Of a stretch of DNA of 64,000 nt, positions 5,537-43,458 are shown in pieces. Positions within the stretch are counted from its first letter, which is position 1, and each line of letters begins with the position of its first letter. Source of the stretch: Rhodobacter sp. (lineage in GTDB: Bacteria > Pseudomonadota > Alphaproteobacteria > Rhodobacterales > Rhodobacteraceae). The notes under the pieces were generated by a model. The model did not search any database and was not told the origin of the DNA. It saw only the letters and a program-made list of their open reading frames with translations. The DNA is taken from the NCBI GenBank assembly GCA_020250125.1, contig JADCEL010000054.1, forward strand, positions 1 to 64,000, written 5' to 3'. The translations under genes and the position numbers were made by a program.

Positions 5537-6574
5537 ATGACGCTTTCCCTTGGCCTTGATACCTTTGGCGATGTGACCCTTGGCGAAGACGGCAGGCTTC
5601 TGCCCCACGATCAGGTGCTGCGCGATCTGGTCGATCAGGGCACGCTGGCCGACAGTCTGGGCATTGATTTTCTGGGGGTCGGCGAACATCACCGCGATGA
5701 TTTCGCCGTCTCTGCGCCAGAGGTGGTTCTGGCCGCCATCGCCGCCCGGACCGGCCGCATCCGCCTTGGCTCTGCGGTCACCGTGCTGTCTTCGGACGAT
5801 CCGGTGCGGGTGTTCCAGCGGTTCTCGACCCTGAACGCCATTTCCGGTGGCCGGGCCGAAGTCATCCTCGGGCGCGGGTCCTTTACCGAAAGCTTCCCGC
5901 TGTTCGGGTTCGAGCTGAAGGATTACGAACGTCTGTTCGAAGAAAAGCTGGACCTGTTCACGCACCTCGTCCGCGATCCCGTCGTGACATGGTCCGGGCA
6001 AACCCGTGCGCCGCTGGTCAATCAGCGTGTGTTTCCCACGCTTGCACCCGAAGGGATGGCTGTTTCCATCGGGGTCGGCGGCAGCCCGGACTCGGTGGTG
6101 CGCGCGGTGCAGCATGACCTGCCGATGATGCTGGCGATCATCGGCGGCGATCCGCGCCGCTTCCTTCCTTATGTGGACCTGTATCAGCGCGCGGCGCGGC
6201 AGATGGAACGGCCCGTCCGCCCCCTGGGGGTGCATTCCCCCGGCCACATCGCCGCCACGGATGAGCTGGCGCAGAACCAGCTCTGGCCGCATTACCGCAA
6301 GATGCATGACCGCATCGGCGGCGAACGCGGCTGGCCGCCCACCACGCGCGAGGCCTTCCGGCGCGAGGTTGCGCAAGGCTCGCTTTATGTGGGATCACCC
6401 GAAACGGTGGCGCGCAAGGTTGCGGCCACCGTCAGCGCGCTGGGTCTGGGCCGCTTTGATCTGAAATACTCCAACGGGGCCATGCCGCAGGCGCAGATGA
6501 TGGAAAGCATCCGCCTGTACGGAAGCCGGGTCATCCCGATGGTGCGCGAGATTCTGGCGGCCAAGGCCGCCTGA
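5537..6574 (+). CDS. LLM-class flavin-dependent oxidoreductase
   Basis: The 345-residue protein has the luciferase-like monooxygenase barrel. It shows an N-terminal segment DSLGIDFLGVGEHHR, then RIRLGSAVTVLSSDDPVRVFQ and GGRAEVILGRGSFTES. The family uses reduced FMN or F420 to oxidise small organics; the substrate here is unknown. Its stop codon directly abuts the stop of a tiny minus-strand ORF at 6575. Confidence 0.88.
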   Translation: MTLSLGLDTFGDVTLGEDGRLLPHDQVLRDLVDQGTLADSLGIDFLGVGEHHRDDFAVSAPEVVLAAIAARTGRIRLGSAVTVLSSDDPVRVFQRFSTLNAISGGRAEVILGRGSFTESFPLFGFELKDYERLFEEKLDLFTHLVRDPVVTWSGQTRAPLVNQRVFPTLAPEGMAVSIGVGGSPDSVVRAVQHDLPMMLAIIGGDPRRFLPYVDLYQRAARQMERPVRPLGVHSPGHIAATDELAQNQLWPHYRKMHDRIGGERGWPPTTREAFRREVAQGSLYVGSPETVARKVAATVSALGLGRFDLKYSNGAMPQAQMMESIRLYGSRVIPMVREILAAKAA

Positions 6575-6649
6575 TCAGCCGACCAGCGGCAGCGCCATGA
6601 CCAGGGCCAGGATCACGCCGATGGCGATCTTCAGTTTCGGGCTTGTCAT
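6575..6649 (-). CDS. Candidate 24-residue single-span membrane peptide
   Basis: Read on the minus strand, an ATG is preceded by GGAGACCCGCC, giving a GGAGA Shine-Dalgarno at good spacing. It opens a 24-codon frame starting MTSPKLKIAIGVILALVM and ending in TGA. The charged N-terminus followed by about 16 hydrophobic residues is typical of small inner-membrane peptides. It is too short for the ORF track. It lies tail-to-tail with the oxidoreductase gene, with adjacent stops. I do not recognise a family. Support rests on the ribosome binding site and the membrane-segment composition. Confidence 0.5.
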   Translation of the reverse strand: MTSPKLKIAIGVILALVMALPLVG

Positions 6650-6763
6650 GGCGGGTCTCCATCCTTGGGCAATGTGTTGCACATGGGGCGCAGTTGCCTT
6701 TTGTTCAAGGCAGCGGCTAACCCGGAAAGGCGCGCAAAAGCGGCTTGCGGTGATTGAGGGGTC

Positions 6764-6982
6764 GGTCGAACCAGGGTTCGGCCATCGAATACCGCGCCCG
6801 GACCGATAAGGTCACGCTCCTGTGGAGCGTGGCCCGGTCCGTTGCCCGAAGGCGCAAGCCGCAGGGCAAGGGGGGTCGGTCCTGGAATACGGCTGATAAA
6901 TCAGGCCGCGCCTGCCTGGGCGGGCGCGAACGCGCCTGCCGGGGGCAGGCAGGCGCGGCCTGATTTGACGCGTGTCAAATCA
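6764..6982. other. Cluster of four inverted repeats between zapE and the 24-codon ORF
   Basis: The 437-base gap 6650-7086 has no larger gene but holds dense dyad symmetry. GGTCGAACC (6764-6772) pairs with GGTTCGGCC (6775-6783). CACGCTCC-TGT-GGAGCGTG sits inside flanking CGGACCG/CGGTCCG (6799-6841). A perfect 21-bp arm pair spans 6898-6918 and 6946-6966. TGATTTGAC-GCGT-GTCAAATCA occupies 6961-6982. The last two share TGATTT, so only one can form at a time. The hairpins could end zapE transcription or fold in the 5' leader of the small ORF. Confidence 0.75.
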
Positions 6983-7086
6983 GGCAAGACGGCGCGAGCG
7001 TCATCCGCGAGCGGAATGAAGACTCCTCTTCCCCTTCATCCAGGATGCGTCCCTGCGTACCCCGCGCGTCACCCTGCTTGACAGCT

Positions 7087-8175
7087 TTACGGGCTTATCC
7101 CCCAATCCGCCGCCTGCATCTCGCGCAGGCGGCTGGCGGTGCGGGCGAATTCGAACGACCCCGCCCCTTCGATATACAGCCGCTCGGGCAGCTCTGCCGC
7201 CGAACAGATCAGCCGCACCTTCGCCTCGTAAAGCGCGTCGATCAGCGTGACAAAGCGTTTCGCCTCGTTGTAATTGGCGGATGACAGCTGCGGCACGTCT
7301 TCCAGGATCAGCACCCTGACCGCCCCCGCAATCGCCAGAAAGTCCGCCGGGCCCAGCGGGCGCGCGCACAGGTCCCAGAAGCTGGCCCGCCCGACGCCGT
7401 TTGCAAAACCCGGAACCTCCACCTTGCGCCCGTTGACCGGCAGCAGCAGCGGCACGGGCTGCGCGCCGCCGGTCAGATCGTTCCAGATGGCCGCGATGGC
7501 CGCCGCCGACTTGTGCCCTGCCGGGGTGAAATAGACCTGCGCCCCTTCCAGCCGGTGCTGGCGGTAATCCGTCGGGCTGATCAGTTCGCGCACCTCCATC
7601 CGGTCGTGCAGCAGCGCGATGAAGGGCAGGAAGGACGCGCGGTTCAGCCCGTCCTTGTACAGGTCTTCGGGCGGGCGGTTCGATGTGGTGACAATCACCA
7701 CCCCGTCCGCCGTCAGCATCCCGAACAGCCGCCCCACGATCATCGCATCGGTGATGTCGGTGATCTGCATTTCGTCCAGGGCCAGCAGCCGCACCCCGGC
7801 CGCCACAGCCTCGGCCAGGGGGGCAAGGGCATCGTCGACATGGCGCTTGCGCGCCTCGTGCATGCCGTGGTGAATCTCCTGCATGAAGGCGTGAAAATGC
7901 ACGCGCCGTTTTGCCCCGGTGTCCACCGCGCCAAAGAACAGGTCCATCAGCATGGATTTGCCGCGCCCGACACCGCCCCACAGATACAGACCCTTCGGCG
8001 GTGCGGGCGGCTTTCTGAACAGGCCGCGCAACCCGCCCTTTGGCCGGCCTGCCTGATCTTCCAGCCAAAGGCGGATCTCCTCCAGCCCCGGCAACACGGC
8101 ATGCTGGGCCGGATCGGCCCGCAGGGTGCCGCCGGCGACGCGGGCTTCGTAGATCTCGGTCAAGGTGGCACGCAT
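7087..8175 (-). CDS. zapE: Cell division ATPase ZapE (AFG1 family)
   Basis: The 362-residue AAA-type ATPase has Walker A GGVGRGKSMLMD near residue 63, Walker B LLALDEMQITD, and the AFG1-specific FHAFMQEIHHGMHEAR stretch between them. In Gammaproteobacteria ZapE binds FtsZ rings and modulates constriction. Mitochondrial AFG1 relatives act in inner-membrane protein quality control. The start at 8175 (MRATLTEIYEARV) matches the family; the upstream extension in the ORF track does not. Confidence 0.93.
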   Translation of the reverse strand: MRATLTEIYEARVAGGTLRADPAQHAVLPGLEEIRLWLEDQAGRPKGGLRGLFRKPPAPPKGLYLWGGVGRGKSMLMDLFFGAVDTGAKRRVHFHAFMQEIHHGMHEARKRHVDDALAPLAEAVAAGVRLLALDEMQITDITDAMIVGRLFGMLTADGVVIVTTSNRPPEDLYKDGLNRASFLPFIALLHDRMEVRELISPTDYRQHRLEGAQVYFTPAGHKSAAAIAAIWNDLTGGAQPVPLLLPVNGRKVEVPGFANGVGRASFWDLCARPLGPADFLAIAGAVRVLILEDVPQLSSANYNEAKRFVTLIDALYEAKVRLICSAAELPERLYIEGAGSFEFARTASRLREMQAADWGISP

Positions 8176-33248: not shown

Positions 33249-33731
33249 ATGCTGCGCAAGCTTCTTCCGGTTCTTCTTGTTCTTGTCGGATGCGGCGCCG
33301 GTGCTGCGGCCGGTGTCTTCCTGCGGCCCTCTGACCCCCCTGCCGAAGACGCCGCCACCGACGCGCCGGAGGACGCCGAGGCGCATGCCAAAGAGGGTGC
33401 CGGGCCGCTGCATGAATATGTGAAGCTGAACAATCAGTTCGTCGTGCCGGTGATGGCCGAGGGCAGGGTTTCGTCGCTGGTGGTCATGTCGCTGAGCCTG
33501 GAGGTGACGCCGGGTCAGGTCGAGCGTGTCTACGAGATGGAGCCGAAGCTGCGCGATGCGATGCTGCAAGTGCTGTTTGACCACGCCAACAGCGGCGGCT
33601 TCAACGGGTCGTTCACCGACGGGGCCAATCTGGTGCTTCTGCGCGCGGCCCTTCTTGAAACGGCCCTGCGCATCTTCGGCAAGGACGTGACCGATGTGCT
33701 GATCGTCGACATCGTCCGGCAGGACAACTAG
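33249..33731 (+). CDS. fliL: FliL-family basal body-associated protein (first copy)
   Basis: The 160-residue protein has one N-terminal membrane anchor, an acidic/alanine linker and a FliL-like periplasmic domain (HEYVKLNNQFVVPVM ... LLETALRIFGKDVTDVLIVDIVRQD). FliL supports stator function at the basal body. A second, different FliL gene lies at 42918. The gene ends the plus operon and overlaps the convergent gene by four bases. Confidence 0.85.
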   Translation: MLRKLLPVLLVLVGCGAGAAAGVFLRPSDPPAEDAATDAPEDAEAHAKEGAGPLHEYVKLNNQFVVPVMAEGRVSSLVVMSLSLEVTPGQVERVYEMEPKLRDAMLQVLFDHANSGGFNGSFTDGANLVLLRAALLETALRIFGKDVTDVLIVDIVRQDN

Positions 33732-35133: not shown

Positions 35134-35909
35134 CAGGGCACCGCGAAAGGTGCGGCAAAAAACCCGTTCAGCGCGGCCAGCCAGACAGCCAGCGCCAGCG
35201 GCGCGCTCAGCGCCAGCAGCACCAGCCCCCCCGCCGTCAGCGCCGGTGCCCCGACAAAGGCCACCATCAGCTGCGGCATGGCCCGGTTGATGACGCCAAG
35301 CGCCAGGTTGTACAGGAAGGACGCAATCACGAAAGGTGCGGCCAGCGAAAAGCCTGTCGCAAATGCGCGGGTGACCTGCGCAAGGCCCCAGTCCGCCATG
35401 TCAGCGGCGTCGGGCAGCCTGCCCACCGGCAGGATGTCATAGCTCAGGATGAAGTATTCGGCACAGCTGACATGCAGATCGGCAGCCATGGCAAGGGCCA
35501 GCCCCGAAATGGTCAGCAGATGGCCGATGGCCGGCTGCGGCTCGGCCCCGGCACCGGCCAGAAGCTGGGCCAGCGACGTGGCCTGGGCCGCGATGGCCCC
35601 GGCAATCTGCAAGGCATGGACAAAAAGGCGCAAGGCCGCGCCCAGCGCCAGCCCTGTGGCCGTTTCTGTCAGGAACACCGCCCAGAACCCCTGATCCATC
35701 GGCGGAATGTCAGCAGCGACAGCGGGAAAGATGACGGCGGTAAAGGCCAGCGCCAGCACCAGCCGGATGCGCTGGGGTACCACAAGCTCTCCGAACGCGG
35801 GCAAAAGCGCCATGGCGGCCCCGACGCGCAGCAGCACGACAAAGCCCGTCCACAGCAGGGTTTCCCCGATGCCCGCAAGCTGGGCAAGCGTTCCGATCAT
35901 CTCTGTCAT
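35133..35909 (-). CDS. fliR: Flagellar export gate protein FliR
   Basis: The 258-residue protein has about six membrane helices and the conserved LLRVGAAMALLPAFGE, LVPQRIRLVLALAFT and GLALGAALRLFVHALQIAGA regions. The start at 35909 (MTEMIGTLAQLAG) lies in an ATGA overlap with flhA; the longer ORF-track form reads flhA in another frame. It works with FliP and FliQ in the export channel. Confidence 0.93.
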   Translation of the reverse strand: MTEMIGTLAQLAGIGETLLWTGFVVLLRVGAAMALLPAFGELVVPQRIRLVLALAFTAVIFPAVAADIPPMDQGFWAVFLTETATGLALGAALRLFVHALQIAGAIAAQATSLAQLLAGAGAEPQPAIGHLLTISGLALAMAADLHVSCAEYFILSYDILPVGRLPDAADMADWGLAQVTRAFATGFSLAAPFVIASFLYNLALGVINRAMPQLMVAFVGAPALTAGGLVLLALSAPLALAVWLAALNGFFAAPFAVP

Positions 35910-37984
35910 GGCGCGACCAGACCGACCATGGCGGGCCGCGCCTCCATCCCGATTTCCTCGTAAGACAGGACCGGGGCGGTCAGCCCCTTGGCCAGCAACA
36001 CGGTGCGCAGGAAGCGCCGCCGCAGGGTCGATGTGACAAAGGCGGGCTGAACCCCCATTTCCGTGGCGCGGGCCAGTTTTTCGGACAGGGCATTGGCCAG
36101 CCGGTTGAACTGATCGGGGGGCAGGGCCACGTCCCGCAGGCCGCGTTCGCCTTCGATCTGGTATTGCCCGAAGGTGCGTTCCCATTCCGGTGCAAGCTGG
36201 ATCAGCGGAATGGTGCCATCCGCCCGCTTCAGCTCGGCCACCATCTGAAAGCCAAGCCGGTGGCGGACATGTTCGCAGACGGCTTCCGGTGTGGCCAGGG
36301 CCCTTGCCTCGGCCACCGCTTCCAGGATCAGGGGCAGGTTGCGGATCGACACGCGTTCGTCCAGCAACAGCCGCATCACCGCCAGCAGAAGATCAACCGG
36401 CACCTTTTCCGGCACCAGTTCGTCCAGCAGCCGCCGGTTTGCCTCGGCGCGGGCCGTGTCGGACAGGTTGACGAATTCATCCAGCAGCCGGCGCAATCCG
36501 CGCAGGGAAAGCAGGCGGGCCATGTTGGCCTTCAGCACTTCCAGAAGATGGGTTGCCAGAACCTCGGCCGGGGTCACCACGGTCAGGCCGGAGATTGCCG
36601 CATCTTCCTGCCGGTCGGGCGGAATCCATCGCGCCGGCGCGCCATAGACCGGCTCGCGCACGTCCTGGCCTTCGGGGGCGTCCACACCTTCGGACAGAAG
36701 CACCAGCACGCGGTCAGGGACCAGCAGGTCGCGCACCCGTTCGACGCCCTGCAGCCGGATGCGGTAGCAGCCCGGCGGCAGCATCGGATCATCCGTCAGC
36801 CGGATTTCGGGCAGGATCAGACCGAAGGCGGTCGCGACATGCGTGCGCATGTTGGTGATGCGCGCATCGAGGCCCGTTGCCGGGTCCAGCACCATCGCGA
36901 CCAGGGTGGGCGAGAATTCCACGTGGATCTCGTCGAAATCCAGCACATCGCCCAGGGGCCTGCGCCGGGGCGGGGTCTCTGCCGGCATGTCTTCCGGCGG
37001 CGGGGCGGCACCGCGCATATGGGCCAGTACCGCCAGCGCGCCCAGGGCGGCCGCACCCAGCATGAAGGGGATGAAGGGCATTCCCGGCACAAGGGCAAAC
37101 AGCGCCATAAGCACCGCAACCGTGCCCAGCGCCCCCGGATACCGGCCCAGCTGGCGGAAGAAGGCAAGATCGGCCGCCCCTTTCGCCCCGCCGCGCGTCA
37201 GCAGAAGGGCGGTCGCCACGGAAATGATCACGGCGGGTATCTGGCTGACCAGCCCGTCGCCCACGGTCAGGATCGCATAGGTTTCAAAGGCCGTGCCTGT
37301 GGGCATGTCATGCACGAAGATGCCCATGATCAGGCCCATCACGATGTTCAGCGCGGTGATCAGCAGGCCCGCAACCGCATCGCCCTTGACGAATTTCGAC
37401 GCCCCGTCGAGCGAGCCGAAAAAGTTCGTCTCAGCCAGTTCCTGTTCGCGCCGCGCCTTGGCCTCGGCATGATTGATCGCGCCTGCGGACATGTCGCTGT
37501 CGATGGCAAGCTGGCGGCCCGGCATGCCGTCCAGTGCAAAGCGCGCGCCGACCTCGGCCATGCGGCCTGCGCCCTTGGTGATGACGATGAAGTTCACGAT
37601 CATCAGCACGCAGAAAATCACCACGCCCAGCAGCAGGCTGCCGTCCATGATGAAGTTGGCGAAGCCTTCGATCACATGCCCGGCGGCATCGGTGCCGGTA
37701 TGGCCCTGCCCGATGATCAGCTTGGTTGACGAGACGTTCAGCGAAAGGCGCAGCAGCAGGCTGGCCAGCAGAATGGTCGGAAAGGCCGAAAAATCCAGCG
37801 GCCGTTCAATGAACAGCGCCACCGTCAGCATCAGGATCGCCAGCGCAAAGGACAGGGCAAGCCCGATGTCCAGCATCCAGGCCGGCACCGGCAGCACCAT
37901 CATGGCGATCACCGCCATCAGCGCCAGCGCCAGCAGGATGGTGGGCTGGAACACCTCGCGCATGGTCACGGCAGGAAAGATCAC
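35906..37984 (-). CDS. flhA: Flagellar export apparatus protein FlhA
   Basis: The 692-residue protein has eight N-terminal membrane helices, the FHIPEP signature region (LLLRLSLNVSSTKLIIGQGHTG) and a large cytoplasmic domain that docks chaperone-substrate complexes (LQGVERVRDLLVPDRV, RWIPPDRQEDAAISG). The GTG at 37984 overlaps the upstream stop in GTGA; an ATG seven codons in (MREVFQPTILLA) is an alternative start. Length matches the family. Confidence 0.94.
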   Translation of the reverse strand: MIFPAVTMREVFQPTILLALALMAVIAMMVLPVPAWMLDIGLALSFALAILMLTVALFIERPLDFSAFPTILLASLLLRLSLNVSSTKLIIGQGHTGTDAAGHVIEGFANFIMDGSLLLGVVIFCVLMIVNFIVITKGAGRMAEVGARFALDGMPGRQLAIDSDMSAGAINHAEAKARREQELAETNFFGSLDGASKFVKGDAVAGLLITALNIVMGLIMGIFVHDMPTGTAFETYAILTVGDGLVSQIPAVIISVATALLLTRGGAKGAADLAFFRQLGRYPGALGTVAVLMALFALVPGMPFIPFMLGAAALGALAVLAHMRGAAPPPEDMPAETPPRRRPLGDVLDFDEIHVEFSPTLVAMVLDPATGLDARITNMRTHVATAFGLILPEIRLTDDPMLPPGCYRIRLQGVERVRDLLVPDRVLVLLSEGVDAPEGQDVREPVYGAPARWIPPDRQEDAAISGLTVVTPAEVLATHLLEVLKANMARLLSLRGLRRLLDEFVNLSDTARAEANRRLLDELVPEKVPVDLLLAVMRLLLDERVSIRNLPLILEAVAEARALATPEAVCEHVRHRLGFQMVAELKRADGTIPLIQLAPEWERTFGQYQIEGERGLRDVALPPDQFNRLANALSEKLARATEMGVQPAFVTSTLRRRFLRTVLLAKGLTAPVLSYEEIGMEARPAMVGLVAP

Positions 37985-38673
37985 GGCGCGGCTCCGATCA
38001 GGGCGAACCCGCCTTCGACCTGTGGCACCAGTGACCCAAGGCTGCCCGTGGCACCGGCCTGCAACAGCGGAAAGCGGTTTTCGCGCGTCGCACCGGCCAG
38101 CAGCGGCATCTGCCCCCCTGTGTCCAGCCCGTCATGCAGCTGATTGAAGCGGGCACGGTAGCGGTCGGCATTTTCCGGCGTGCGCGAATGATAGGCTGCG
38201 GCGGCATCCGGCCAGCTTCCGGTTTCGGCGAACAGGCCCAGCAGGAATTGCGCCGCGTAACGTGCATTCGCCGTGGGGTCGAACATCGCGGCCACGTCGG
38301 GAAAGGCCCCGGCGTGCCAGCGGTGGTTGATCTGAAAACAGCCGATGTCGAAATTCGTGCCGCCCTCTGCCTGATACGCGGCCACGGCGCGCCTGGCTTC
38401 GCTGCTGCTGTCGTACCAGGCGCCGTCGCCGCCGAAATTCACCGTCCACGGCCAGGGGCGCTGATGCCCCCCCCGGTTGCGGCCACTTTCCGCCAGGGCG
38501 ATTGCCTGCAGAACGGACAGCGGCACGCCTGTCTCTTCGGCGGCCAGCACCGTGGCGCGTTCGCACAGGGCTGCCGGGTCGGTCGCGCCCTGCGCCATTG
38601 CGCCGCAAAGACCGCAGGCGGCGGCCAGGGCGCCTGCAATCCGCAAACGGTGCCAGAAATGCGCGTGACTCAT
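37981..38673 (-). CDS. Flagellar-cluster lytic transglycosylase (SltF-like)
   Basis: The 230-residue protein has a signal peptide (AGALAAACGLCGAMAQG) and an SLT-type domain with the catalytic glutamate in AIALAESGRN, the core IGCFQINHRWH, and AAAYHSRTPENADRY. Rhodobacter sphaeroides uses SltF to open peptidoglycan for the rod, since its FlgJ lacks the muramidase domain. Position next to flhA fits the same role. The ATG at 38673 is preferred; a GTG three codons upstream is possible. Confidence 0.87.
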   Translation of the reverse strand: MSHAHFWHRLRIAGALAAACGLCGAMAQGATDPAALCERATVLAAEETGVPLSVLQAIALAESGRNRGGHQRPWPWTVNFGGDGAWYDSSSEARRAVAAYQAEGGTNFDIGCFQINHRWHAGAFPDVAAMFDPTANARYAAQFLLGLFAETGSWPDAAAAYHSRTPENADRYRARFNQLHDGLDTGGQMPLLAGATRENRFPLLQAGATGSLGSLVPQVEGGFALIGAAP

Positions 38674-38750
38674 GGGTTTCACCCTGTTCGGCCCTGAAGG
38701 CGTTCGGCGTGGCCAAGCTGGCGGAAATGTCTTTCGATTCGGTAAGCCGG

Positions 38751-41057
38751 TCAGGGTTGCGGCTGCTCGGGCGCAGGGGTTGCCTCCAGCAGCGACAGGA
38801 TGGCGTCGCGGGTCTTGGCGCTGTCTTCCAGCAGGGCGCGTCCCTGGGCCAGGGGGGCGTTCCCGTCCGGCGGCAGGACCGGTCGATCAGGGGACAGCTG
38901 TTGCAGCGCCGCGCGCACGGCGTCGCTGCCCAGGTCGGCGCTGGCCGCCCAGTCCTGCGCGCGCCACAGGGCTGCGGCCTCTGCCGCCGGATCGCCCGCT
39001 TCGGCAAAGGCGCGCGCCGCTGCGGCTTGGTCGCCCAGTTTCTCCAGCGCTTCTGCCCGCAGCCGGCTGATTTCCGGGCCATCAAGGCCCGCTATGCCGC
39101 GCAGCGCCGTTCGGGCGTCGCCGCGCCGCAGTTCGGCCCGTGCCAGGCTTTCCGCAGTTGACGCATCGGTGGCATCGGGCAGCCAGCGCAGGGCCTCATC
39201 GGCGAAGCCAAGGCCAAGCAGCCGGTCGGCGATGCTTTTGCGCAGGGCGTTGTCCAGCGGGGGCACCGGGCTGTCCTGGGGCAGAACCGCATGGGTCAGA
39301 AGCGCGGAATCCTGCCCCTTTCCGGCCAGCATCGCCCAAAGCCCTTCCACATCGGCTGCGTCGGCCCGGGGACTCCGGCTGAAGGCCGCGTCAAAATCGC
39401 CGGTCGAGGCCAGGGCCAGCATTTCGGCCCGGATGAGCGGCGCTTGCAGTTCCGTGCCCTGGCTTTCATGCAGGTGCGCGCCCAGTTCCACGATGGTCGC
39501 CTCGTCCACGGACTGCCCCAACTCAAGCTGCGTGTCCACAAGGTCAAGCAGGGCAAGGCGGGCGCCCGGGCCACCTGACTCGCGCAAGGTGCCCAGTCTT
39601 TCCGCCGCATCCTGCAGGTTGCCGCGTTCGCGGTCGAGCTGGGCCTGCAGGATTTCGGCGGCGGGGCCCGCCGCACCGGGCGCGCGCCAGATGGCATCGC
39701 GAATCATCTGCGCCGTCGAGATATCGCCGATAGAGAGCATCTTTTCGGCCAAAGGTGCCCCGAGATGCCGGCGCAGGTGCAAGGGAAGCGACGAAAAGGC
39801 CAGGGCCACGCTTTTGGCATCGGGGCCTTGACCCGGTTTCAGGAGAGGCTCGGCCAGTGTTGCCCACAGCGCGACAGAACCGGTGCAGTCAATCTGACCC
39901 GCAAAGGGGCTTCCCGAAGGGGCCGCCTGATCATCCAGAATATGCGCCATTGCCGTCCACAGGGGTGCCTCGGGAAAGTCGGTGCCAAAGCCGGCCAGAA
40001 CATTGCGCGCTTCCGCTCCGAAGCCGAAAAACAGGTTCAGCCGGACAAGACGCGCCAGCGCCTCGGGGTCCGGCCGGTCGAATTCGCCGACAAGGGTGTT
40101 CCGCGCCTCGGTCATCTGCACCACAAAGGGGCGGTCATCGCCCCAGGCCGCTATGTCGAGGTCAGAATCCGGCAGGCACGCGCCGCCGTCCGGTGTCAGG
40201 GCGGGGTCCCCGGTGTTGACAGGGGCGGCCTCTATCCCCGGAATGCCTTCGATGGCCATATGTGCCGTGGCTTCGGTGTCGGGCCCGATCATCCGCGATC
40301 CGGGCCGGTTCGCAGGAAACGACGGATCATCCACATCGATCACACCGGCGGTCGCCGCGCGCCCCAGTTCCTGCAAAAGCCCAAGGCGCAGGCCCTGCAC
40401 GCCGGGGGGCGGTGTTTCTTCCCGGCTCAGACCGAAGGGCACGGCAGGCGCCGAATTCTGCACCTGCGGCACCATCCCCGGCGGGAACGGGGCCGGGGCC
40501 ATGCCCGCTTCGGCGGTTGCGCCGTCGTCCGGCGTCGCCTGCCGGGGGGTGGGGCGGATGGTGGCGGGCAGGATTGCACCATCGCCCGGCGGGTCCGGGC
40601 GATCAGGTGCCGGGCGCGGGCGCAGGGGCGGAACGACCCGGGCGGTCAGCATGGGCTGGGGGCGCCCGTCCAGACCAAGCTCGAACGGCGGGTCGCCCTC
40701 GGGCGGGCCATCGCGCAGATCGATCACGATGATGTCCGGCCGGAAGGCAAAGGGAACGGCATGACAGGCACAGGCGACGCCGATCTGCAGGTTGCCCGTC
40801 TCGGGATCGGCCCAGACCGATGAAAGCCGGTCCTTGGTGATGACGCGGAAGACCTTTGTCAGATCATAGGGCACCGCCCCCCCCGCCAGCCGAAGCTCGT
40901 ATCCGCCCGGTGTGCGGCCAAGCTGCCAGTCGGCCCTGTCGGGAAGATCGACAACCAGCCGGGTAAATCCGGGGTGATCCCCCGCCTTCACGCGTGCCGT
41001 CTGCGCAGACGCAAAGCCGGGGATGACAAGGGCTGCAAGGATCAGCAAGGCCTTCAT
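38751..41057 (-). CDS. Large periplasmic AMIN-like and TPR-rich flagellar-cluster protein
   Basis: The 768-residue protein has a signal peptide (LLILAALVIPGFASA). It then has a beta-rich N-domain resembling AMIN (HPGFTRLVVDLPDRADWQLG ... DIIVIDLRDG), which binds peptidoglycan in other proteins. A proline-rich linker of about 120 residues follows, then a long alanine-rich helical region with TPR-like repeats (LARAELRRGDARTALRGIAG ... AAAARAFAEAGDPAAEAAAL). It overlaps motA by four bases, so it is expressed with the stator gene. The family is unnamed to my knowledge. A periplasmic scaffold linking stator or rod to the cell wall is plausible but unproven. Confidence 0.75.
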   Translation of the reverse strand: MKALLILAALVIPGFASAQTARVKAGDHPGFTRLVVDLPDRADWQLGRTPGGYELRLAGGAVPYDLTKVFRVITKDRLSSVWADPETGNLQIGVACACHAVPFAFRPDIIVIDLRDGPPEGDPPFELGLDGRPQPMLTARVVPPLRPRPAPDRPDPPGDGAILPATIRPTPRQATPDDGATAEAGMAPAPFPPGMVPQVQNSAPAVPFGLSREETPPPGVQGLRLGLLQELGRAATAGVIDVDDPSFPANRPGSRMIGPDTEATAHMAIEGIPGIEAAPVNTGDPALTPDGGACLPDSDLDIAAWGDDRPFVVQMTEARNTLVGEFDRPDPEALARLVRLNLFFGFGAEARNVLAGFGTDFPEAPLWTAMAHILDDQAAPSGSPFAGQIDCTGSVALWATLAEPLLKPGQGPDAKSVALAFSSLPLHLRRHLGAPLAEKMLSIGDISTAQMIRDAIWRAPGAAGPAAEILQAQLDRERGNLQDAAERLGTLRESGGPGARLALLDLVDTQLELGQSVDEATIVELGAHLHESQGTELQAPLIRAEMLALASTGDFDAAFSRSPRADAADVEGLWAMLAGKGQDSALLTHAVLPQDSPVPPLDNALRKSIADRLLGLGFADEALRWLPDATDASTAESLARAELRRGDARTALRGIAGLDGPEISRLRAEALEKLGDQAAAARAFAEAGDPAAEAAALWRAQDWAASADLGSDAVRAALQQLSPDRPVLPPDGNAPLAQGRALLEDSAKTRDAILSLLEATPAPEQPQP

Positions 41058-41923
41058 GCGGCTTCTTTCTTCAGGGCGCGCAGGGCCTCTTCCAGATCGC
41101 CGAAACTGGGGCGGACATCATGGGGCGTGTTCTGACGCCCGACCTCGATGCAGATATTGGCGGGGTGGTTGTGCAGGTTGGCCACCAGAACCTCACGGAT
41201 CAGCTGGTAGAAATGCGCATCCGCCTCGACCACGCTTTTCACCCGCACCGAGAAGGGTCCGACCAGGCCATAGGCCAGGAAGACGCCCAGAAAGGTGCCG
41301 ACAAGCGCCCCCCCGATCATCTTTCCCAGAATCTCGGGGGGCTGGTCGATCGATCCCATGGTCTTGATCACGCCCAGAACGGCGGCCACGATGCCGAGGG
41401 CGGGCAAGCCGTCTGCAACGGTCTGAAGCGCGTGGCTGGAATGCAGGGCGTGATGCATCTGCGTTTCCATGCGCTTGTCCAGAACCTCTTCCACCTGATG
41501 CGGATCGTCATAGTTCATCGAGGCGGCGCGCAGCGTGTCGCAGATCAGATCGACGGCGTCATGATCGGCCTGGATGCGCGGGTAGCGTCCGAAGACCGAA
41601 GAGCTTCCGGGTTGCTCGATATGTTCTTCCAGCGCCACGGGGTTGGACTTTGCGATCCGGATCAGTTCGAAAAGAAGGCACAGCAGATCGCGGTAGTCGG
41701 ACGTCTGCCAGCGCGGTCCCTTGAAGACCTTGCCCAGGTCGCGCAGCGTTCCCTTGATCGAGGCCGTGTCATTGGACAGAAGAAAGGCCCCAACAGCGGC
41801 ACCGCCGATCATGATCATCTCGAAGGGCAGGGCTTTGAGGATGATGCCCATCTTGCCCCCGGCCAGCATGTAGCCGCCGAAGACCATGATGAAGATCACC
41901 AGGATTCCGATTGCGCCGATCAT
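41054..41923 (-). CDS. motA: Flagellar stator protein MotA
   Basis: The 289-residue protein is the proton-channel subunit with four membrane helices. It has the conserved PALGIVAAVLGVIKTMGSID and MIGGALVGTFLGVFLAYGLVGP regions, which include the functional prolines, and the charged cytoplasmic loop (ALEEHIEQPGSSSVFGRYP). MotB is not adjacent or elsewhere in the window, which is unusual for enteric-type loci. Confidence 0.94.
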   Translation of the reverse strand: MIGAIGILVIFIMVFGGYMLAGGKMGIILKALPFEMIMIGGAAVGAFLLSNDTASIKGTLRDLGKVFKGPRWQTSDYRDLLCLLFELIRIAKSNPVALEEHIEQPGSSSVFGRYPRIQADHDAVDLICDTLRAASMNYDDPHQVEEVLDKRMETQMHHALHSSHALQTVADGLPALGIVAAVLGVIKTMGSIDQPPEILGKMIGGALVGTFLGVFLAYGLVGPFSVRVKSVVEADAHFYQLIREVLVANLHNHPANICIEVGRQNTPHDVRPSFGDLEEALRALKKEAA

Positions 41924-41981: not shown

Positions 41982-42539
41982 TCACTCTGTCGGGGCACCG
42001 GCGTTGCGGCTGGCCAGCAGGATGGTCACGGCATAGGCCTTGTTCGCGGTCATCCCGCCCAGGATGGCCGCCGCCGCATCGGGTTTCATCCGGCCGAGGA
42101 AACCGGCCGCAAATTCCGGGGCCATCTGCTCGAACAGGGGGGCCGCATCCTTTGGCTTCATCGCCTCGTAGACGGTGGTCAGTCTGGCCAGATCCGATTC
42201 GGCGGCTCCGTCGGCCATGGTCAGGGTCGCGGACAGCTTTGCTTCGGTTTCGGTCAGCGCGACGAGCCGCGCCTCGATGGCCTGCCCGGCCAGGGCAAGG
42301 GCGGAAAGCCGGTCATTCAGGGCGTTTTCCTGCGCTGCCACGCGCTGCTCGCGCCTGGTCAGGGCTTCTGCCAGGGCCACGGGGGGCTGCGGACAGACCA
42401 GAGGCTCGGATGATGTTGCAGGCGCATTGGCAACCGCCTCGTTCACGCCCAGCCCAAGACGGATCGCGCCAGAGGCCACAAGGGTCAGCATCAGAAGACC
42501 CAGAATGCCCCGGCCCGGCTGCCTGCGTGTCCGCTTCAT
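41982..42539 (-). CDS. MotE-like flagellar protein
   Basis: The 185-residue protein has one N-terminal membrane segment, a central coiled coil (EALTRREQRVAAQENALNDRLSALALAGQAIEARL) and a C-terminal MgtE_N-like helical domain (VYEAMKPKDAAPLFEQM ... FLGRMKPDAAAAILGGM). This is the MotE/FliK-associated architecture; MotE chaperones periplasmic MotC in Rhizobium. It overlaps the upstream membrane protein gene by four bases. Confidence 0.82.
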   Translation of the reverse strand: MKRTRRQPGRGILGLLMLTLVASGAIRLGLGVNEAVANAPATSSEPLVCPQPPVALAEALTRREQRVAAQENALNDRLSALALAGQAIEARLVALTETEAKLSATLTMADGAAESDLARLTTVYEAMKPKDAAPLFEQMAPEFAAGFLGRMKPDAAAAILGGMTANKAYAVTILLASRNAGAPTE

Positions 42540-42904
42540 TCCGCAGCCTCGACCGAACGTTCCGTGCGCCTGCGGACGAAGCGAAGCCGTTCGTCACGCT
42601 CGACCCGATGGGGTTTCGGATCCGGCAGGTCGTGCATTGACGCCATCAGCAGTTCCATCCGGGCCGCGGCCTGTTCGGCCCGGGCCGTCAGCGCTTCCAG
42701 AGAGGTGGCCGAGGCCGAGGCCGACCCCCGTGCCTTGTCCAGCGCGCGCGTCATGTCATCGACCTGCGCGGACAGGACGGCAATCGCCCCGCCCATTCCG
42801 TTTTCCAGCGTGGTGAACCGCTTCAGCCGCCCGGCAAGGATGTAACAGTAGGCCGCCGCCCCGAATGCACCGACGGCAAGCAGGATATCCGCAATCAAGG
42901 TCAT
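42536..42904 (-). CDS. Conserved flagellar-cluster membrane/coiled-coil protein
   Basis: The 122-residue protein has one N-terminal membrane helix (LIADILLAVGAFGAAAYCYILAG) followed by a coiled coil and a basic tail (ERDERLRFVRRRTERS). I recognise no named family. It lies between fliL and the motE-like gene with a four-base overlap, so it is likely a basal-body or stator accessory factor. Confidence 0.65.
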   Translation of the reverse strand: MTLIADILLAVGAFGAAAYCYILAGRLKRFTTLENGMGGAIAVLSAQVDDMTRALDKARGSASASATSLEALTARAEQAAARMELLMASMHDLPDPKPHRVERDERLRFVRRRTERSVEAAE

Positions 42905-42917
42905 TTCGCCTCTTCCC

Positions 42918-43400
42918 TCAGTTCATGACGAATTCTGTCACCAGCAGATCGCGCACGCGGCCTTCGCCGGTCACGATCTGGATGCGGCGGAGCATTTGCG
43001 CGCGCAGGCGCACCAGCGCTGCGGGGTCTTCCAGTTCTGCCGGGTCAACCGCACGCAGATATCCGTTCAGCACATCAAGGATGCGCGGCTTCAGCATCGC
43101 CACCTCTCCGGCATGGGCCGAAGGCACCTCCACCTGGGCGGTGAACCGAAGGTACCGCCCTTCGGCCGCAGACCCCAGTGACAGCACCATCTGTTCGATC
43201 GGCACAAAGGCGATGTCGGGCAGGGCCCCCGCTTCGGCTTTTTCCGCGTCATGCGTCGCGCCGCCGCCAAGCAGCAGACCGGAATAGGTCGCATAGAATG
43301 CACCACCCCCCAGAAGAAGGGCGGCAACGGCCCCGAAGATCAGCGGCTTCTTCGACCGCGTCTTCGGTTCCTGGTCCAGCGTCACGTTGGCATCGGCCAT
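42918..43400 (-). CDS. fliL: Flagellar basal body-associated protein FliL (second copy)
   Basis: The 160-residue protein has a short cytoplasmic tail, one membrane helix (PLIFGAVAALLLGGGAFYATYSG) and the FliL domain (DIAFVPIEQMVLSLGSAAEGRYLRFTAQVEV ... RIQIVTGEGRVRDLLVTEFVMN). It fits the FliL family better than the 33249 copy. The ATG at 43400 follows GAGAGCCCGA. It begins the long minus-strand operon and is divergent from fliF. Confidence 0.92.
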   Translation of the reverse strand: MADANVTLDQEPKTRSKKPLIFGAVAALLLGGGAFYATYSGLLLGGGATHDAEKAEAGALPDIAFVPIEQMVLSLGSAAEGRYLRFTAQVEVPSAHAGEVAMLKPRILDVLNGYLRAVDPAELEDPAALVRLRAQMLRRIQIVTGEGRVRDLLVTEFVMN

Positions 43401-43443
43401 TCGGGCTCTCCTGCGTTGTGCGACCCGATATAGGCAAAAGGTC

Positions 43444-43458
43444 ATAACCGATTCTTAA
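43444..43458. promoter_or_regulatory. CtrA-like site in the fliL/fliF divergent promoter
   Basis: ATAA-CCGATTC-TTAA fits the CtrA full-site spacing TTAA-N7-TTAA with one mismatch. CTTAAG also occurs in the fliI/flgB promoter (29179-29184), and a TTAA element lies upstream of motA (41965-41968). CtrA controls the fla2 flagellar genes of Rhodobacter sphaeroides. The assignment here is inferred from motif and position. Confidence 0.45.

Follow-up and report, generated by a model that had tools for sequence, protein, structure and literature searches.

The gene overlapping motA in a Rhodobacter flagellar cluster is very probably an orthologue of the stator factor gene motK

Results and Discussion

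We report that a gene overlapping motA in the flagellar cluster of a Rhodobacter sp. (contig JADCEL010000054.1, whose first 64,000 nucleotides were analysed and are hereafter called the window) is, with high confidence, a motK orthologue whose product takes part in stator function. MotK was described in 2024 in Cereibacter sphaeroides as a 652-aa protein of the Fla2 system (RSWS8N_12065), encoded after fliL2-pflI-motE-motA2, in which an AMIN-like N-domain precedes a TPR-like core (PMC10954123). The window gene is an ordinary member of this known family and not a novel type of motor part. The initial annotation had stated that it has no counterpart in model flagellar systems; this is correct for E. 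coli and Salmonella, but counterparts have been published, namely MotK of C. sphaeroides, FssB (CC_2058) of Caulobacter and, by structure, PflA of Campylobacter. The suggested scaffold around the stator or rod, acting with MotE, matches the role published for MotK (PMC10954123), but MotC, to which the protein was likened, is not its nearest relative: the direct orthologue is MotK.

The gene and its operon

The open reading frame runs on the minus strand from an ATG at 41057 to a TGA at 38751-38753 (768 codons), and its start codon overlaps the TGA of motA by 4 bp (junction GCCGCATGAAGG), which bears out that the gene is real and overlaps motA. The product begins with MKALLILAALVIPGFASAQ, a Sec-signal-like N-terminus as read by eye and from a helix at residues 2-15 of the structure model. 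On the same strand, the genes form an operon-like run in the order fliL-pflI-motE-motA-motK-SLT-flhA-fliR-flhB, with fliF divergent (Table 1); between fliL and fliF, a scripted search revealed no exact CtrA-type TTAA-N7-TTAA site. The presence of a MotE-like protein in the same operon was confirmed: it is 56% identical to the MotE of a Cereibacter genome and has a single cysteine, Cys49, as does Cereibacter MotE.

Three further features of this genome were recorded. The SLT gene that separates motK from flhA, whose lytic-transglycosylase-like product is secreted and which was also detected in 49 of the 79 motK loci of named genomes, is a candidate for the enzyme opening the cell wall for rod assembly. 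A second FliL-like gene (33249-33731, plus strand; PF03748, E 7e-6) directly follows flgH, and the MotB of this genome is encoded on another contig (G000:C52:23521-23679), immediately ahead of a hook-like flagellar gene of FlgE type.

The Cereibacter genome carries the same gene run, and its motE and motK products have the published lengths, 185 and 652 aa; it is almost certainly that of C. sphaeroides, judging, among other things, from these sizes and from a protein of the named species Cereibacter johrii that is 91% identical to the 652-aa MotK. The window protein aligned with the latter at 50% identity over residues 5-119 (N-domain) and at 40% over residues 218-630 (core), with E 9e-71. The two share the operon position, the AMIN-like N-domain, the TPR core, the C-terminal helix and all four conserved cysteines, but the window protein is longer (768 vs. 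652 aa), and its solenoid runs on to about residue 722 where C. sphaeroides MotK has a Pro-rich linker. Searches with the window protein alone gave no match above threshold in NCBIfam or among PDB sequences, and nothing above the curated cut-off in Pfam.

Table 1. Features of the stator operon and of the predicted motK product in the window.
Feature	Position	Strand	Description
motK orthologue (very probable)	38751..41057	-	768 aa; predicted secreted AMIN-plus-TPR stator-scaffold protein; PMC10954123
motA	41054..41923	-	TIGR03818 MotA1
motE	41982..42539	-	COG3334-type, MgtE_N-like; 185 aa
pflI homologue	42536..42904	-	DUF6468-like
fliL	42918..43445	-	first gene of the operon
SLT lytic-transglycosylase-like gene, secreted product	37981..38682	-	downstream neighbour of motK
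flhA	35906..37984	-	
AMIN-fold N-domain, residues 19-122	40692..41003	-	model, fold matches, alignment
Pro-rich low-confidence linker, residues ~141-283	40209..40637	-	one predicted helix, 218-236
TPR-like alpha-solenoid, residues ~297-722	38892..40169	-	model
Conserved C-terminal helix, residues 735-759	38781..38855	-	model; in C. sphaeroides MotK after the Pro-rich linker

Distribution of motK and its tie to flagellar genes

Among 61 relatives we found 26 homologues, the full-length ones being 89-93% identical within the genus and 28-45% identical in other genera, and motA lies directly upstream in all 26. When named genomes were scanned with a 6-row alignment as the query, motA was directly upstream at 77 of 79 loci, and at the two loci where no motA was visible the upstream sequence is cut off after at most a few hundred bases. 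The window and C. sphaeroides share the order fliL-pflI-motE-motA-motK, which also holds for nearly all of the 79 named loci. Thus, wherever this could be checked, the homologues sit within flagellar clusters, and the idea that they might occur mainly outside such clusters, which the initial annotation had named as evidence against a flagellar role, does not agree with what we found.

Moreover, a MotK match was present in 216 of 299 genomes of the family (approximately one genome per genus); together with the full-length homologues, this excludes a chance open frame. Counting MotA1 matches above the cut-off and tallying by hand from two tables covering the 299 genomes, we found MotK in 213 of the 227 genomes with MotA1 and in 3 of the 72 without it (Fisher p ~1.7e-49), two of these three matches being very weak. 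In one genome (G068) MotK is present with no MotA1 match; conversely, MotK was undetected in 14 genomes with MotA1 above the cut-off (G012, G029, G072, G127, G148, G149, G150, G173, G179, G216, G260, G293, G298 and G326).

Domain organisation and conserved residues

The whole protein was modelled with AlphaFold from 24 homologues (mean pLDDT 78). The model shows an eight-strand N-domain (residues 21-116), a low-confidence region (141-283), a solenoid (~297-722) and a long helix (735-759), so that, at the level of the model, a TPR-like helical core comes after an N-domain of AMIN fold, and the long helical repeat region of the initial annotation is recovered. The N-domain modelled in isolation reached a pLDDT of 94, and its best Foldseek matches were AMIN-type domains of PilQ and AmiC (TM 0.60-0.70, E 0.007-0.03). 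PilQ was also the best match of its sequence profile (E 0.015). The Pfam AMIN family (PF24837) matched the window protein below the cut-off (E 0.17; 12.4 bits, with the cut-off at 27 bits) and was matched by 8 of 24 homologues with a best E of 0.005. The N-domain is therefore AMIN-like by fold, as had been annotated, although by sequence it stays below the Pfam cut-off. The fold search with the whole protein returned mostly generic TPR/PPR proteins, which were taken as background because any solenoid yields such matches.

H28, R33, R77 and D113 of the N-domain and C294, E349, C391 and W398 of the core do not vary in the 24-row alignment or in any named homologue covering the positions, and most homologues have a CxC at 96/98 in the N-domain. 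C294, just before the solenoid, and C391, within it, occur in 80 of 80 homologues, and they may form a structural disulfide. The text describing C. sphaeroides MotK discusses a cysteine for MotE only (PMC10954123). In the papers cited here we found no mention of the invariant C294/C391 pair, of tandem AMIN-like domains or of sequence-level homology reaching the relatives in other families.

MotK-like genes in other alphaproteobacterial families

Of 20 loci fetched from outside the family, 19 cluster with motE and fliL; these loci were among the strongest matches and are, for this reason, not a random sample. The N-domain and solenoid profiles, run separately, both match most of the outside-family proteins, and eight of these give a tandem double match to the N-domain profile. 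Since no BLAST similarity to MotK was seen for the Caulobacter proteins (PMC10954123), we regard this profile link as a modest extension of the family.

Several of these loci differ in their partner genes. At 11 of the 19 motE-linked loci (L168, L171, L173 at 6307-7730, L174, L175, L176, L177, L179, L180, L181 and L183) the space between motE and the MotK-like gene holds two MotB-like genes in tandem, and motA was not found. The transmembrane Asp is present in one member of the pair, frequently together with an OmpA domain; the second member has neither the Asp nor an OmpA match. In at least six of the genomes with such pairs, a stronger MotB match lies elsewhere. A CheZ-like gene (PF04344, E ~1e-16) is placed between motE and the pair at two loci (L173:5620-6303 and L179:4857-5516), and genes resembling it by eye were seen in further loci.

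Possible role in the motor

In C. sphaeroides, motK mutant cells still assemble flagella, but these do not rotate; the protein is periplasmic and binds MotE and MotB2 (PMC10954123). Its polar focus requires MotA2 and MotB2 and only partly MotE, the pole being reached also without MotE, while MotE is unstable without MotK (PMC10954123); from this dependence of MotE stability, we infer that MotK and MotE form a complex. In Caulobacter crescentus, FssB was proposed as a distant MotK homologue (PMC10954123) and is, like MotK, a TPR protein of the motE cluster; it is Sec-exported, as is predicted for the window protein, and its deletion leaves cells paralysed, as does that of motB (PMC7885107); it differs in being undetectable by BLAST (PMC10954123), and the likeness is taken here from its published description. 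The loss of FssA, which works with FssB in one pathway of stator activity, is suppressed by MotB plug mutations (PMC7885107). For the window MotK, orthology, operon, architecture and co-occurrence are direct observations, and the same function as in C. sphaeroides and Caulobacter would be expected because of the published motK and fssB mutant phenotypes.

A structural parallel is offered by PflA of Campylobacter, in which a beta-sandwich resembling AMIN is followed by a linker and 16-17 TPRs, and which acts as a spoke; its AMIN-like domain and linker bind the protein PflB (PMC12222027, PMC11870540). A case has been made for treating MotK, MotC, CC_2058 (FssB) and PflA as counterparts of one another, with MotE as the protein of the E-ring (PMC13023049). 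In our fold search, chain K of the C. jejuni motor scaffold 9HMF, almost certainly PflA judging from chain length and the paper, ranked fourth (E 1.1e-4). The TM of MotK against this chain was ~0.16 over the full length, and many unrelated TPR proteins score alike; consequently, the link to PflA relies on shared domain order (AMIN-like beta-sandwich, flexible linker and TPR superhelix) and on the literature, which connects PflA to the E-ring and the stator scaffold. No PflA chain was among the PDB sequence matches of MotK, and PflA differs in that it requires its partner PflB.

On this basis, MotK would be exported to the periplasm and belong there to a scaffold that keeps the MotAB stator in place at the base of the flagellum. 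On the model of PflA, the TPR solenoid of MotK would point inward, toward the E-ring of MotE that surrounds the MS ring, and its AMIN-fold N-domain, on the disordered linker, outward to the stator, where it may contact MotB and/or peptidoglycan; binding to peptidoglycan is suggested for this domain by its fold. MotK might then recruit stators, or keep MotB open and ion-conducting, and in its absence the flagellum would be assembled but would not rotate. The assignment of domains to partners in this scheme is putative, and the detailed spoke geometry has, in our opinion, about an even chance of being right. A more specific version can be advanced only tentatively: MotK could be the alphaproteobacterial PflA, a disulfide-locked spoke between MotE ring and stator, whose AMIN domain binds a protein (MotB or an unknown rim protein) and not peptidoglycan, in a family that spans the Alphaproteobacteria with one or two AMIN-like domains and stands beside differing MotB-type partners.

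It is also possible, though somewhat doubtful, that MotK is a part of the stator and not a spoke, binding MotB and the cell wall, opening the MotB plug and travelling with the stator, while the ring of MotE would be no more than a helper. The position of motK directly downstream of motA, overlapping it, would agree with this, as would the rescue of FssA loss by MotB plug mutations (PMC7885107) and the localisation data (PMC10954123): since the pole is reached without MotE but not without MotA2/MotB2, MotK may ride on the stator and not arrive first as a spoke. By contrast, the dependence of MotE stability on MotK argues for a complex of the two (PMC10954123), and MotK shares its architecture with PflA, which forms a spoke in the Campylobacter motor as solved (PMC12222027).

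The other two readings concern the identity of the gene. That the protein is a MotC of rhizobial type is very unlikely: MotC of Sinorhizobium meliloti is, like MotK, a periplasmic and TPR-rich partner of MotE, but it is described without an AMIN domain and is believed to be missing from C. sphaeroides (PMC13023049), whereas the window protein carries a domain of AMIN fold and has MotK as its orthologue. It is set apart from MotC by the literature description, on which this comparison rests because no rhizobial MotC was found downstream of MotB in the sampled genomes. Even less credible is a general periplasmic TPR protein, such as the partner of a cell-wall enzyme, brought into the flagellar cluster by chance beside the SLT gene. 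The generic TPR/PPR proteins among the whole-protein fold matches and the adjacency of the SLT gene would fit it, but motA accompanies the gene at 26 of 26 and 77 of 79 loci, the SLT gene at only 49 of 79, and the co-occurrence with MotA1 and the paralysed mutants of two species (PMC10954123, PMC7885107) also speak against it. Homologues common in genomes without flagella were looked for among the 299 family genomes and were not seen.

The seemingly additional gene of this Rhodobacter stator operon therefore very probably encodes a known and essential rotation factor. What we add to existing knowledge is modest: MotK is linked at the sequence level to motE-adjacent MotK-like genes in many other alphaproteobacterial families, it has an invariant pair of cysteines, and it strongly co-occurs with MotA1. 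Taken together, these findings allow the E-ring and spoke scaffold that has been proposed for alphaproteobacterial motors to be tested directly in species amenable to genetics.
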